The notes beneath the pieces are model-generated. The model searched no databases and was not told the DNA's origin. It was given only the letters and a program-made list of their open reading frames with translations. A program made the translations under genes and the position numbers. This document shows, piece after piece, positions 48,061 through 59,830 of a stretch of DNA of 64,000 nt (position 1 is the stretch's first letter; the number at the start of each line of letters is the position of its first letter). The stretch covers positions 744,001-808,000 of the forward strand of contig JADCLP010000001.1 in the NCBI GenBank assembly GCA_014983025.1, in the 5' to 3' direction. Source of the stretch: Erythrobacteraceae bacterium E2-1 Yellow Sea (GTDB lineage: Bacteria > Pseudomonadota > Alphaproteobacteria > Sphingomonadales > Sphingomonadaceae).

Positions 48061-48091
48061 TTCGTCACTCCCGCGCAGGCGGGAGTCCATG
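48061..48091. repeat. REP-like hairpin repeat, left member of a doublet
   Basis: TTCGTCACTCCCGCGCAGGC followed by GGGAGTCCATG. Internal palindrome ACTCCCGC/GCGGGAGT-like. It matches the GIY-YIG flanking repeat at 24 of 30 positions and pairs in inverted orientation with 48118-48147. Confidence 0.75.
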
Positions 48092-48117
48092 CCGCGAGGA
48101 CAGGTTCTGAATTCAAG

Positions 48118-48147
48118 TATGGATTCCCGTTTTCACGAGAATGACGA
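48118..48147. repeat. REP-like hairpin repeat, right inverted member of a doublet
   Basis: TATGGATTCCCGTTTTCACG then AGAATGACGA; its reverse complement matches the left member at 22 of 30 positions. The 26 bases between the two contain no gene. Confidence 0.7.
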
Positions 48148-55747: not shown

Positions 55748-57553
55748 ATGGCGCAACCACCAATTCTTTCATGGGAAGGCCTTGGCCTGCAACAGGGCGG
55801 CCGCTGGCTGTTCGGCGGGCCAGACCGCGAATCCCTGGACCTGCATGTCGGCCCACGGGACCGGCTGGCGCTGATCGGGCGCAATGGCGCGGGCAAGACC
55901 ACACTGCTGCGGCTGATTGATAACCGGATCGAAGCGGATCATGGCCTGCGCAAGATCAAGCCCGGCACACGAATCGTTTTCCTGGAACAGGAACCCGATT
56001 ATTCCGGCTGTGACACACTGATGGATTACGCGCTGGGCGGGAACGACACGCCTGCCCTGCATGAGGTTGAGGCGATTGCCGGGCAGTTGGGCATCGATAT
56101 GTCGCGCCCTGCCGCCACTGCCAGCGGGGGCGAGCGCCGCCGCGCCGCCATTGCCCGCGCTCTGGCGATGGAGCCTGATCTGCTGTTGCTGGATGAGCCG
56201 ACCAACCACCTGGATCTTGGCGCGATTGACTGGCTGGAAGATTGGCTGAACCGTTATCGCGGCGCCTTCATCACCATCAGCCATGACCGCACATTCCTGA
56301 AACGGCTAACCAAGGCCACGCTGTGGCTGGACCGTGGCAATCTGCGGCGCAAGGAAGTGGGTTTCGGCGGGTATGAGGCATGGGAAGAACAAGTCTATGC
56401 CGAAGAAACCCGCGCTGCGGAAAAGCTGGATGCCAGGCTGAAGCTGGAGGCGCATTGGCTGGAACGCGGCGTGACCGCGCGGCGCAAGCGCAACCAGGGA
56501 AGGCTGGAAAAACTGTGGCAGATGCGCGCCGCCCGCGCCGCCATGATCTCCACCACCGGCACGGCCAAGCTGAAGCTGGCCAGCGATGAGGAGTTCAAAT
56601 CGAAATCCGTGATCGTGGCGGAAAAGGTTTTCAAGAATTTCGGCGAACGCGCCGTGATCAAGGACTTTTCCCTGCGTATCCAGCGCGGTGACCGGATCGG
56701 CATCGTCGGCGCCAATGGCGCGGGCAAAACCACGCTGCTGAAACTGCTGACAGGCGAGATGCAGCCCGATACGGGCAAGGTCGAGATTTCAAAGAAGCTG
56801 TCCGGCGTGATGATCGATCAGCAGCGCAGCCTGATGGAACCCGATCGCAGCGTGCGGCAGGTGCTGGCCGAAGGTGGCGACTGGATCGATGTGCGCGGCA
56901 TCCGCAAACACGTGCAGGGTTATCTCAAGGAATTCCTGTTCGACCCCAAGATTGTCGATACCAAGGTCGGTACTTTATCCGGCGGCGAACGATCACGACT
57001 GTTGCTGGCGCGCGAATTTGCCCGCACATCCAATTTGCTGGTGCTGGACGAGCCGACCAATGACCTCGATCTGGAAACGCTGGACCTGCTGCAGGAAGTG
57101 ATCGCCGATTATGACGGCACCGTGCTGATCGTCAGCCATGATCGTGATTTTCTCGACCGTACTGTCACTATTACGCTGGGGCTGGACGGGTCGGGCCGCG
57201 TCGATGTGGTGGCCGGCGGTTATGAGGATTGGGAAGCCAAACGCCGCCAGCCGATAGAGGCGAAGAAGAAAGCTGCTGCGCCAGCCGAGAAAACAGCCCC
57301 TGCCCCACCGCCAGCGCCCAAATCAAACAAACTCTCCTACAAGGATCAGCGCGATTACGAGCTTTTGCCAGCAAGGATCGAAGAACTGGAAACCGCGATC
57401 ACCAAGGGGGAAGCAATCCTTTCCGACCCCGATCTTTACGCATCAGACCCGCAGAAATTCGCCAATATCATGCAGGGCGTAGAAAACGCCCGCGCCGAAA
57501 AGGAAGCGGCAGAGGAACGCTGGCTGGAACTGGCAGAACTGGTGGAGGGGTAG
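55748..57553 (+). CDS. uup: ABC-F ATPase Uup
   Basis: 601 residues with two ABC modules: NBD1 Walker A GRNGAGKTT, signature ASGGERRRA, Walker B LLLLDEPTNHLD; NBD2 GANGAGKTT, LSGGERSRLL, LLVLDEPTNDLD. A linker rich in Arg/Lys lies between, and the C-terminal end is an Ala/Glu-rich coiled coil (about 530-600) that binds DNA in Uup. ABC-F proteins act on the ribosome; Uup affects transposon excision and replication restart. Confidence 0.93.
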   Translation: MAQPPILSWEGLGLQQGGRWLFGGPDRESLDLHVGPRDRLALIGRNGAGKTTLLRLIDNRIEADHGLRKIKPGTRIVFLEQEPDYSGCDTLMDYALGGNDTPALHEVEAIAGQLGIDMSRPAATASGGERRRAAIARALAMEPDLLLLDEPTNHLDLGAIDWLEDWLNRYRGAFITISHDRTFLKRLTKATLWLDRGNLRRKEVGFGGYEAWEEQVYAEETRAAEKLDARLKLEAHWLERGVTARRKRNQGRLEKLWQMRAARAAMISTTGTAKLKLASDEEFKSKSVIVAEKVFKNFGERAVIKDFSLRIQRGDRIGIVGANGAGKTTLLKLLTGEMQPDTGKVEISKKLSGVMIDQQRSLMEPDRSVRQVLAEGGDWIDVRGIRKHVQGYLKEFLFDPKIVDTKVGTLSGGERSRLLLAREFARTSNLLVLDEPTNDLDLETLDLLQEVIADYDGTVLIVSHDRDFLDRTVTITLGLDGSGRVDVVAGGYEDWEAKRRQPIEAKKKAAAPAEKTAPAPPPAPKSNKLSYKDQRDYELLPARIEELETAITKGEAILSDPDLYASDPQKFANIMQGVENARAEKEAAEERWLELAELVEG

Positions 57554-57614
57554 CAGCCAAGTAGCGGCCAGGGTCTGCCTATGGGCGGATAGCGGACGCT
57601 AAAGAGATTGTGTT

Positions 57615-58139
57615 TTAGGTGGTCGCTGATGAACGTCGAACGACACGTACCCGGCAAAAGCCATTCATCTTGAAACTCGTAAACACCGTTTGCCCCACCA
57701 CAGCTCTAGGACTGCTGTGGAACGCTGTATATGGCCAAACCAGATTGGCCGTGCTCGCAACGCGATTAATGTTGCGAGTGTCCGACGCATATTCCGGTTC
57801 GAACTTCTCCAATAGGGTCCTCGCCATGGCCTTGGTATCGGGCACCACACAATTCGTTCCAACAGTTGGAAAACGAACGTCATAGAGACCAATCTTGCCC
57901 GCAGGGTCCGTTCCTATGCCGACGTAGGCGTGCCCCTCGTCCATACGATATTCGAACAATTTCATTTTAAAGCCGAAGAGAGTGGTCGAAGGACTCAGCT
58001 TCACCGGGTGGGGGTTATACCATTCCGGCCCAAACGAAGTAGAGAATGCCAAGGCCTCCCCTTCACTGCGAAAAAGTGGCAACAACGGCGCGACCGAGCC
58101 GTCCTGAGCGACAGCAAGGGCTATAGCTAACAATACCAT
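57615..58139 (-). CDS. Predicted secreted protein, function unknown
   Basis: 174 residues, with an N-terminal hydrophobic signal-like segment (MVLLAIALAVAQDG) and a soluble remainder with FSTSFGPEWYNPHP and two Cys that could pair. No family recognised. GC content and codon use are lower than in the flanking uup and secF genes, suggesting recent arrival. It sits convergent to uup and beside the GIY-YIG cassette. Confidence 0.55.
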   Translation of the reverse strand: MVLLAIALAVAQDGSVAPLLPLFRSEGEALAFSTSFGPEWYNPHPVKLSPSTTLFGFKMKLFEYRMDEGHAYVGIGTDPAGKIGLYDVRFPTVGTNCVVPDTKAMARTLLEKFEPEYASDTRNINRVASTANLVWPYTAFHSSPRAVVGQTVFTSFKMNGFCRVRVVRRSSATT

Positions 58140-58249
58140 CTATTCTCAATCCCGAAGAACCGGGCCTTCATGCTCTGAAAAAAACTAATAACCTCTACAT
58201 CGCATGATAGCCAATCGTCCACACATGGGTCGTTAGCAGATCTTGAAAA

Positions 58250-58279
58250 TTCGTCATTCCCGCGAAAGCGGGAACCCAG
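58250..58279 (+). repeat. Left 30-bp repeat of the GIY-YIG cassette
   Basis: Starts TTCGTCATTCCCGCGAAAGC and ends GGGAACCCAG. It contains a hairpin TTCCCGC-GAAA-GCGGGAA. The reverse complement occurs without a mismatch at 58604-58633. Its last base is directly followed by the stop codon of the GIY-YIG gene. Confidence 0.92.
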
Positions 58280-58591
58280 CTATTCCAAGGACTCAAATCC
58301 AAATTCCTCGGCAAGGTCGCGCCAGTCTGGATTGCTCTCTTCGATCAATTCCAGCTTCCACGCCCGGTTCCATTTCTTGATCCGCTTCTCGCGCAGGATG
58401 GCATCTTCCATCGTCGCAAGTGGCTCGAACCAGACGAGACGCTTCACGCCATAGTCGCGGGTGAATCCGGGAATCAGACCCTTGCGATGCTGGTGGAGGC
58501 GTCCAATGAGATCGGACGTTACACCGGTGTAGAGCGTCCCGTTCTGGCGGGAGGCGAGAATATAGACCGCCGGACAGGTTTCGAGGTTCAT
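58280..58591 (-). CDS. GIY-YIG nuclease superfamily protein
   Basis: 103 residues. The domain opens with CPAVYILASRQNGTLYTG, i.e. the VYIL...LYTGVT variant of GIY-YIG, followed by the catalytic Arg region DLIGRLHQHRKG and a later Glu in AILREKRIKKW. This is the UPF0213/YhbQ-like small single-domain group. It is enclosed by perfect 30-bp inverted repeats: the stop touches the left one and the start is 12 bases from the right one, so gene plus repeats form a unit of 384 bp. Confidence 0.85.
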   Translation of the reverse strand: MNLETCPAVYILASRQNGTLYTGVTSDLIGRLHQHRKGLIPGFTRDYGVKRLVWFEPLATMEDAILREKRIKKWNRAWKLELIEESNPDWRDLAEEFGFESLE

Positions 58592-58603
58592 TTACGCGAA
58601 TTA

Positions 58604-58633
58604 CTGGGTTCCCGCTTTCGCGGGAATGACGAA
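58604..58633 (-). repeat. Right 30-bp inverted repeat of the GIY-YIG cassette
   Basis: CTGGGTTCCCGCTTTCGCGG then GAATGACGAA: exact reverse complement of 58250-58279. Confidence 0.92.
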
Positions 58634-58688
58634 GGGGGGAGTATCCGTCTTTTAATCAAATATCCGTAATTGGGCCGTTAGCAGCCAT

Positions 58689-59162
58689 TCAACCCACCCG
58701 ATAAAAATCCGCCACGCGTTCCAACGCAAGTTTCAGCACCAGTTTGCCGCTACGCGCAGGCCAGCCCAGCCCCTTTTCCGCCTCAGGCAACCCTTCGCCT
58801 GCGCAGACCACGCGCCAGAGGATGTCTTTCAGACCCGTCCCCGCCTGATCGAGTGCGCCATCAAAGCGTTCGCGGGCGGCGATCTGGCGTTCACCCTGGG
58901 TCAGCCCATGATCGCCCCCACCCTTTACCCGCACCGGGTCCCACCGCATGGTAATACTGGGGGCGAGTTGCGCGCGCTCATAATCGGCGCGTAACCGTTC
59001 GCCCGCATCGAACAGCCGGTCACTCAAATGCCCGCGCGCATGGAGCCAGGTGAGCGGGCTTTCCGCCAGATTGACGGTAACGCTACGGCGCTTGCCCCGC
59101 ACCCCGCCACTTCGACGGGCCCCCTCTACCGTCAGTTCACGTTCGACCAGATGGCGCTGCAT
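58689..59162 (-). CDS. DUF6456-domain protein
   Basis: 157 residues matching the DUF6456 group of alphaproteobacteria: VNLAESPLTWLHARG, then LSDRLFDAGERLRADYERAQLAPS and a C-terminal helical part with LKDILWRVVCAGEGLPEAEKGLGWP, which looks like a region-4/HTH-type DNA-contacting unit. From memory, this domain occurs in regulators of gene transfer agents (GafA/GafZ type); I could not verify that here. It is divergent from an XRE regulator with a palindrome in the shared 95-base gap. Confidence 0.78.
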   Translation of the reverse strand: MQRHLVERELTVEGARRSGGVRGKRRSVTVNLAESPLTWLHARGHLSDRLFDAGERLRADYERAQLAPSITMRWDPVRVKGGGDHGLTQGERQIAARERFDGALDQAGTGLKDILWRVVCAGEGLPEAEKGLGWPARSGKLVLKLALERVADFYRVG

Positions 59163-59228
59163 GGCAAATCCCCTTGTGCATGATTCGTGACGGGACTTGC
59201 AATTTTTGGGTTAGTGTAGGAAAGATAA

Positions 59229-59245
59229 ATAACCATTATGGTTAT
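59229..59245. promoter_or_regulatory. 17-bp palindromic operator between the DUF6456 gene and the XRE regulator
   Basis: ATAACCAT-T-ATGGTTAT: two perfect 8-bp arms around one base, 12 bases before the XRE start. A near-identical copy lies at 63204-63220 upstream of the holin gene. Probable binding site of the XRE regulator itself. Confidence 0.72.
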
Positions 59246-59257
59246 CGGAGAGATGGT

Positions 59258-59830
59258 GTGATCAACCGCATTCGCGATATACGCAAGAGCAAGGGCGTGA
59301 CGCTGGCCGAACTGGCGGAAGCTTGCGACCCGCCCACCACCGCGCAAACCATCGGACGGCTGGAAACGGGGATGCGCAATCTTTCCCTGAAATGGATGGA
59401 CCGCATCGCAGCTGCTCTGGATGTGGACCCGGAAACGCTGGTGCGCAGCGAAGATGCATCTGTTGCAAATATCGTCGCCACCTTGCGCTCTGGCGGGCCA
59501 GAAGCCCTGACGAAACTACGTGAAGCTGTGCTGCCCACAGACCTTGCCAGCGATGGCACGTTGATGGTGCTGAGTGCGGAGGATAGCGTGGGCGAGTTCC
59601 GCCCTGGTGACCTCATCTGGCTACGTCAGCTATCGCCCGAAGATGCGGGCCACGCGATCAACCGGGATGTATTGGTCCCGCGGCCTGGTGGCCGCTTTGC
59701 CTTTGGCCGGCTGATTGACCGGCAGGGAAATCTTGTCGGCATCCTGCCGCCAGGCATCGGCCACAAGCAACAAGTGGTGGACAATCCGCCCTGGATCGCA
59801 GTTGCAGAAATGCTGGTGCGGCGGCTTTAG
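59258..59830 (+). CDS. XRE-family regulator with S24-like C-terminal domain
   Basis: 190 residues from GTG 59258 (GGAGAG upstream; no suitable ATG in frame). HTH_3 domain at about 5-65: IRKSKGVTLAELAEACDPP then TAQTIGRLETGMRNLS. The C-terminal part (about 105-190) has the LexA/CI-like pattern FRPGDLIWLRQL...RDVLVPRPGGRFAFGRLI, but lacks the GDSM Ser and clear catalytic Lys, so it should dimerise without self-cleavage. Likely represses itself and the divergent DUF6456 gene via the palindrome at 59229. Confidence 0.82.
   Translation: MINRIRDIRKSKGVTLAELAEACDPPTTAQTIGRLETGMRNLSLKWMDRIAAALDVDPETLVRSEDASVANIVATLRSGGPEALTKLREAVLPTDLASDGTLMVLSAEDSVGEFRPGDLIWLRQLSPEDAGHAINRDVLVPRPGGRFAFGRLIDRQGNLVGILPPGIGHKQQVVDNPPWIAVAEMLVRRL

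Follow-up and report, generated by a model that had tools for sequence, protein, structure and literature searches.

At positions 58,250 to 58,633 of the window (the whole stretch of DNA analysed, 64,000 nucleotides), a small nuclease gene lies between two palindromes, which raised the question of whether gene and palindromes belong together and what the nuclease might do with them. The left palindrome, a CGTC-type REP hairpin on the plus strand (58250-58279), reads TTCGTCATTCCCGCGAAAGCGGGAACCCAG and consists of an outward-facing CGTCA, the hairpin TTCCCGC-GAAA-GCGGGAA and the tail CCCAG. The right CGTC-type REP hairpin (58604-58633, minus strand) is its exact reverse complement over all 30 bp, and the repeat search extended both arms to 36 nt at 94% identity. 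The gene between them, which encodes a 103-residue single-domain GIY-YIG endonuclease (58280-58591, minus strand), has its stop codon abutting the left arm (0 bases) and its start 12 bases from the right arm. These analyses confirmed the preliminary description of the locus, which had reported perfect 30-bp inverted repeats with an internal hairpin and a gene nearly filling the space between them. The bracketing of the gene by the arms is far beyond chance: DNA of the same size and composition would be expected to hold 4e-11 exact 30-bp inverted pairs spaced within 400 bp.

Folding of the two arms as single-stranded DNA gave predicted energies of -8.5 kcal/mol (z -4.4) and -8.0 kcal/mol (z -3.4), with TTCCCGC paired to GCGGGAA around the loop GAAA (TTTC on the other strand) and the leading TTCGTCA and trailing CCCAG left unpaired. 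The 23-base core of the repeat matched the window at three places when up to 3 mismatches were allowed, compared with none in 100 shuffles. The window also holds a gene-free doublet at 48063-48147, formed by two related, partly decayed and outward-facing CGTC-type repeats (48064-48086, plus strand; 48124-48146, minus strand). Searches for other identities gave no Rfam RNA family in 57500-59300 at E 1, no NCBIfam match at E 1 and no PADLOC defence-system model at E 0.1. A phage origin was likewise rejected, the four matching phage records having an identity of 37.6-39.7%.

The focal protein belongs to the GIY-YIG nuclease superfamily, having the domain (Pfam PF01541, E 3.5e-14), the two tyrosines and the catalytic Arg and Glu. 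Residues Y10, Y21, G23, R31, H35, E68 and N87, a set that includes catalytic-type residues, were invariant across 67 aligned proteins. A structure model built from these 67 aligned sequences showed a confident GIY-YIG fold (pLDDT 94.7); a single-sequence model was poor (pLDDT 44.5) and was left aside. The best Foldseek match was the UPF0213 protein 1zg2 (E 5.6e-4, TM about 0.5), followed more weakly by UvrC and Slx1 domains (E 0.009-0.26), and the only solved structures matched by sequence were 1zg2 and 1ywl. These UPF0213 / Slx1-like proteins, which were among the best matches by fold, are like the focal protein stand-alone GIY-YIG domains, and they are not known to be associated with repeats. 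The Slx1 cluster is given as being without the C-terminal Asn in a 2006 survey (PMC1564403), whereas N87, a possible counterpart of the UvrC Asn, is invariant in the focal family.

Residues 7-93 of the focal protein were 68% identical to the product of a Neisseria gonorrhoeae gene that sits among dRS3-type repeats, one of them directly after its stop codon. This gene is probably ssn. The Ssn protein of Neisseria meningitidis was reportedly described in Nature Communications in 2025 as a GIY-YIG site-specific single-strand nuclease that acts on the NTS repeat and has thousands of homologs differing in specificity, and Ssn and NTS are said to be tied to natural transformation in Neisseria. The focal locus resembles that system in having a small GIY-YIG protein and palindromes of the same CGTCATTCCCGC...GCGGGAAT kind as those around the N. 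gonorrhoeae homologue. It differs in that the focal gene lies tightly between the arms of one inverted pair, with few other copies in its genome. No statement of the flanked arrangement, or of the type matching described below, was found in the literature searched, a body of papers to which the Ssn paper itself does not belong.

The palindromes of the focal locus fit the definition of CGTC REPs, with a stem one pair shorter than the published minimum. These elements were described in 2013 as being without a dedicated transposase, CGTC-1 of Neisseria being dRS3 (Di Nocera, PMC3733652, in the accessible part of the text). The dRS3 element, ATTCCC(N8)GGGAAT, occurs in several hundred copies in N. 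meningitidis (PMC3898611, as excerpted). According to the same part of PMC3733652, a CGTC REP has a CGTC tag, a palindromic stem of 8 or 9 bp, a CCA-like tail, a loop of 4 bases in family 1 and a tendency to form dimers in opposite orientation. The focal repeats have all of these, including the 4-base loop of family 1, except that their hairpin forms 7 pairs where the published stems have 8 or 9. The term "GIY-YIG" is absent from the text of PMC3733652, and from the available portions of PMC12306157 and PMC6006769, later papers on REPs in which Di Nocera is cited.

The flanked focal gene is one case of a general pattern. Of 199 genomes of the taxonomic family, the focal genome included, 142 had at least one relative of the gene; we examined 113 loci, namely the four of the focal genome and the 109 others that ranked highest in a longer list. 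Inverted flanking palindromes scoring at least 16 were found at 103 of the 113 loci, compared with 3 of 113 when the flanks of the same loci were displaced as a control; at a looser score of 12, the counts were 105 and 18. From at least 582 relatives on named genome contigs we took the best 80, of which 58 were flanked at the score of 16 compared with 1 of 80 controls, the sole control match being from Neisseria, where the repeats occur in arrays; at a score of 12 these numbers were 64 and 8. In 150-bp windows, 145 of 193 GIY-YIG genes were flanked compared with 5 of 301 other ORFs of the same loci, although these 193 loci are not all independent because at least three of the named loci appear to be the same places as family loci (L180/L056, L202/L066 and L230/L077). 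The loci below the threshold of 16 numbered 10 of 113 in the family and 22 of the best 80 of at least 582 named relatives, and several of the 10 family misses had a repeat at one side only. By eye, a GIY-YIG gene of the Novosphingobium plasmid pNL2 also lay between an inverted pair, and no obvious CGTC pair was seen around the gene of Rhizobium plasmids. On a plasmid of Sphingobium sp. TomTYG73 (L303), the GIY-YIG gene had a one-base deletion relative to its neighbours and both flanking repeats looked intact.

The hairpins next to the genes mostly faced outward, with GTCA outside and YCCA inside. In the GIY-YIG family, as in RAYT REPtrons, an enzyme gene lies between cognate inverted REPs. The tag-to-tag length had a median of 401 bp (10-90% range, 378-458) across the 75 loci at which each tag lay no more than 110-120 bp from the gene, a limit that builds in part of this regularity. 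Such fairly regular spacing would suit hairpins that act as local control elements, such as transcript hairpins or terminators, and not as nuclease substrates, with the dispersed copies deriving from an unrelated process. We consider this unlikely, as it offers no account of the inverted, outward-facing pair, nor of dispersed copies that match the type of the local nuclease (see below).

The focal genome (G000; 2.52 Mb in 31 contigs) itself contains four members of the gene family, all of them flanked by palindromes on both sides and representing three types in all: CCCGC at the focal gene, CCAGC at two near-copies on contig C11, and TGAAC at the member on contig C28, one arm of which is degenerate. 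At up to 3 mismatches, the focal type occurred at 7 places in the genome, two of them being the focal pair, and the reversed control gave none. The CCAGC type occurred at 12 places, of which 4 belong to the two gene cassettes and 6 make up three gene-free doublets of 77-79 bp; the gene cassettes and gene-free doublets therefore have common ends. The high genomic copy number of CGTC REPs was not seen for the focal type (7 places) or the CCAGC type (12). A further palindrome, GTCCGCAATTGGGTCGTTAGCGGAC, had 6 copies in this genome at up to 3 mismatches, two of which adjoin the CCAGC-type cassettes (L012 and L013), and by eye there are degenerate direct copies of it on either side of the focal cassette (58220-58242 and 58662-58686). 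It was rejected as a general partner of the genes, as its GCGGAC-type motif was near 10 of 113 family loci compared with 7 of 113 controls, which is no enrichment.

The type of palindrome went with the type of protein. Sorted by inner stem, the 113 loci comprised 41 of type B (TGAAC), 27 of type A (CCCGCG), 18 of type C (CGGAC), 23 in seven smaller groups and 4 that were untyped; four of the loci carried more than one palindrome type. On a protein tree made from 111 columns by a quick method, in which many forks are open, the 113 loci required 21 type changes compared with a mean of 64.0 after shuffling, and none of 200 shuffles was as low. As a control for the host, labels were also shuffled only among cassettes of the same genome, which concerned 43 rows in the 19 genomes that hold different types and left the repertoire of each genome intact. 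The observed 18 changes (untyped rows left out) were again below every shuffle (mean 37.1, minimum 28; 0 of 300 as low). In addition, the nearest protein from another genome had the same type in 92 of 109 cases, compared with 25.1 expected. Together, these last two results indicated that the palindrome goes with the protein and not with the host genome. A separate protein clade (support 96; L094, L099, L101, L124 and L126) went with a TTGCGAG-type repeat.

The hairpins themselves hinted at how such specificity might be read. We selected 81 type-B hairpins by their fixed inner part, which leaves only the three outer pairs informative. These were TGC/GCA in 34, CCC/GGG in 24 and TCC/GGA in 17; pairing was kept in 75 hairpins and incomplete in the other 6. 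Within a cassette, the arms often had different outer stem pairs, each arm still being paired. This is the pattern that a reader of hairpin shape and inner sequence would select for. On the protein side, positions 75, 73, 54 and 16 differed most between types A, B and C, a comparison uncorrected for phylogeny that serves as a lead, and these type-dependent residues suggest where the specificity may be read.

Copies dispersed through the genomes followed the same matching. Of the two exact patterns counted per genome, A was present in 67 of the 199 genomes, with a maximum of 99 copies, and B in 86, with a maximum of 133, the reversed control giving 0 for both. Among the 142 genomes with the gene family, 63 held at least 5 A and B copies in total, compared with 6 of 57 without it (p 2.6e-6, p-values here overstating independence because the genomes are related). 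Two of these six gene-less genomes are only 85-86% complete, among the gene-less being G177, with 50 A and B repeats, no detected family gene and a completeness of 86%. The median number of A copies was 6 in the 25 genomes with an examined A cassette and 0 in the 58 other examined genomes, 14 of which still held at least 3; for B copies the medians were 11 in 41 genomes with a B cassette and 0 in 42 others (13 with at least 3). A copies outnumbered B copies in 11 of 16 genomes with only A cassettes (the reverse in 3), and B outnumbered A in 28 of 32 with only B cassettes (the reverse in 3), the excess thus matching the cassette type (p 1e-5). Non-matching copies also occurred, with at least 3 A copies in 8 of the 32 only-B genomes and at least 3 B copies in 6 of the 16 only-A genomes.

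These counts also bear on the alternative that something else, such as a Y1 transposase (RAYT), moves the repeats, which would then be ordinary REPs with the GIY-YIG gene a bystander among them. The accessible parts of the literature do link GTAG REPs to RAYTs (PMC3733652, PMC3116915), and 14 of the 69 genomes with at least 5 A and B repeats had both genes. However, 49 of the 69 had the GIY-YIG gene only, none had Y1 only and 6 had neither. The Y1_Tnp domain had no match in G000 and matched in 31 of the 199 genomes of the taxonomic family, without significant association with the repeats (at least 5 repeats in 14 of 31 genomes with Y1 and 55 of 168 others; p 0.22). A Y1 mover would also leave the matching of repeat type to protein unexplained, and we regard it as very improbable. 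The proposal in the preliminary description of a REP-associated nuclease unlike the Y1 type was well supported as an association by the flanking, the tracking of types, the matching copies and the lack of a link to Y1. The refuting condition set in the preliminary description, namely family members lacking the repeats and repeats widespread without a link to the genes or to insertion polymorphism, was checked and did not overturn it.

The preliminary description had further suggested that the locus is a possible minimal mobile cassette, whose nuclease may recognise or move the hairpins. Two cassettes of G000, 95.4% identical and 45 kb apart, were found in different surroundings; on the start side their homology ended at the C of CGTCA, and on the other side it continued 51 bp into GTCCGCAATTGGGTCGTTAGCGGAC. 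Twenty pairs of loci whose gene DNA matched at 78% or more were compared; some had no common surroundings and homology ending a few bases from the tags (L100/L116, -3 and +2; L070/L119, -1 and +2), and others had common surroundings on one or both sides. Relatives also differed in whether they carried a cassette at a given site. The one at L021 in G098 was missing at the same site in G004 and G160, where the spacer is unalignable. At one site in 11 Sphingobium plasmids, a type-C cassette was present in seven by match coverage (four of the seven were read), a single double-headed palindrome took its place in two (perfect in L299, with mismatches in L300) and two had other DNA, one of them a different palindrome. 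The double-headed palindrome resembles a fusion of two outer halves, one from the left repeat and one from the right. Perfect or near-perfect forms of this kind were found at 5 places, compared with 458 single-headed hairpins, in 977 kb of partly overlapping loci, and the same double-headed form stood in G177 where G035 has a full doublet. The simplest reading is that these forms are probable products of deletion between short direct repeats, which a pair of inverted hairpins generates.

At the focal site, the search for an empty site covered 30 loci around the DUF6456 gene, kept from the 40 of 41 same-genus genomes with a match. The GIY-YIG gene was absent from all 29 loci outside the focal genome, with the ABC-F gene in reach in 26, and no exact empty site was readable among them, the intergenic DNA being too diverged. 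A minus-strand ORF of 174 residues without a Pfam match (57615-58139) was also absent from these 29 loci, and it and the cassette together look like a putative lineage-specific insert between the ABC-F and DUF6456 genes. Two other candidate empty sites were discarded, L098 against G162, where a different gene occupies the site, and L116 against G004 and G098, where one flank alone matched; the Rhizobium plasmids provided no useful empty site.

Several of these observations could describe a minimal insertion sequence of the classical type, which would have terminal inverted repeats and be moved by its GIY-YIG protein, duplicating the target. This is close to the original suggestion. Its inverted ends, the 95%-identical copies 45 kb apart and the presence or absence between relatives are in its favour. 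However, no target-site duplication, for which the preliminary description had proposed inspecting empty sites, was seen at the filled and reduced sites compared, where either the flanks were too diverged or the junction was a fused palindrome. The two reduced plasmid sites keep one such palindrome, as a deletion would leave, and the ends are hairpins and not simple terminal repeats. We think an insertion sequence of this kind improbable. Of the suggested mobility, what held was the different surroundings, the homology ending at or near the repeats, the duplication in G000 and the presence or absence between relatives; a target duplication did not appear, the clearest reduced site was deletion-like and nothing tied movement to the nuclease.

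Gene-free doublets offered a second view of turnover. The related species G035 and G177 had 18 of these, 100-105-bp units with related spacers and, by eye, mostly different flanks. In three syntenic blocks a doublet was at the same place in both species, which indicates that turnover can be slow. A pyrimidine-rich, C-rich tract preceded both ends of the 18 doublets (L280-L298); it is possibly a target preference or part of the doublet unit. Slow turnover and the lack of a visible target duplication, together with what is reported of Ssn and NTS in natural transformation of Neisseria, would accord with a nuclease that is only a brake on, or marker for, incoming single-stranded DNA or recombination, the repeats accumulating by other means. 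This agrees with our preferred explanation on recognition and differs from it on mobility. It has to contend with gene and repeats behaving as a unit in different surroundings, and with doublets and gene cassettes having common ends. We view it as a serious contender, at somewhat less than even odds.

The explanation that we prefer, with a probability of about 0.75, is that the locus is a REPtron-like cassette in which a small, Ssn-like GIY-YIG nuclease gene is enclosed compactly between two cognate CGTC-type hairpins of its own that face outward. From the association and the matching of types, the nuclease very probably acts on these repeats, and we infer that it cuts them as single strands. 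It would most likely bind and nick the hairpin in its single-stranded state, recognizing the CGTCA tag, the inner stem with its loop and the CCA-like tail, with the outer stem read as structure. Cutting, combined with host replication or repair, may then let gene cassettes and gene-free doublets spread and be lost. That the nuclease itself spreads the repeats is possible, and we hold it with less conviction than the recognition.

The nuclease fold is unrelated to that of the HuH/Y1 transposases (RAYT/TnpA-REP) of GTAG-REP REPtrons and REPINs; the focal protein is a GIY-YIG protein without a Y1 domain, and a GIY-YIG enzyme would not be expected to work through tyrosine-linked chemistry. The parallels with those systems, as described in the available parts of PMC8266576 and PMC3116915, are a gene between cognate REPs, gene-free inverted doublets and co-evolution of enzyme and REP. 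We tentatively speculate that CGTC REPs and Ssn-like nucleases might constitute a non-HuH transposon-like system, in which the gene between two REPs would be autonomous, the gene-free doublets of ~75-105 bp would be miniature derivatives and each nuclease lineage would multiply its own hairpin type. If this speculation is correct, the enzyme that was missing in 2013 would be this nuclease.

The novelty of these findings is lowered because the cutting of single-stranded Neisseria repeats by a GIY-YIG enzyme has reportedly been published already. The matching of gene and repeat names a candidate enzyme for the CGTC REPs of alpha-, beta- and gammaproteobacteria, and the natural enzyme and hairpin pairs of different specificity bring the question of the enzyme within direct reach of bench experiments. 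Should the nuclease spread the repeats as well, it would represent a route of REP dissemination with unrelated chemistry.
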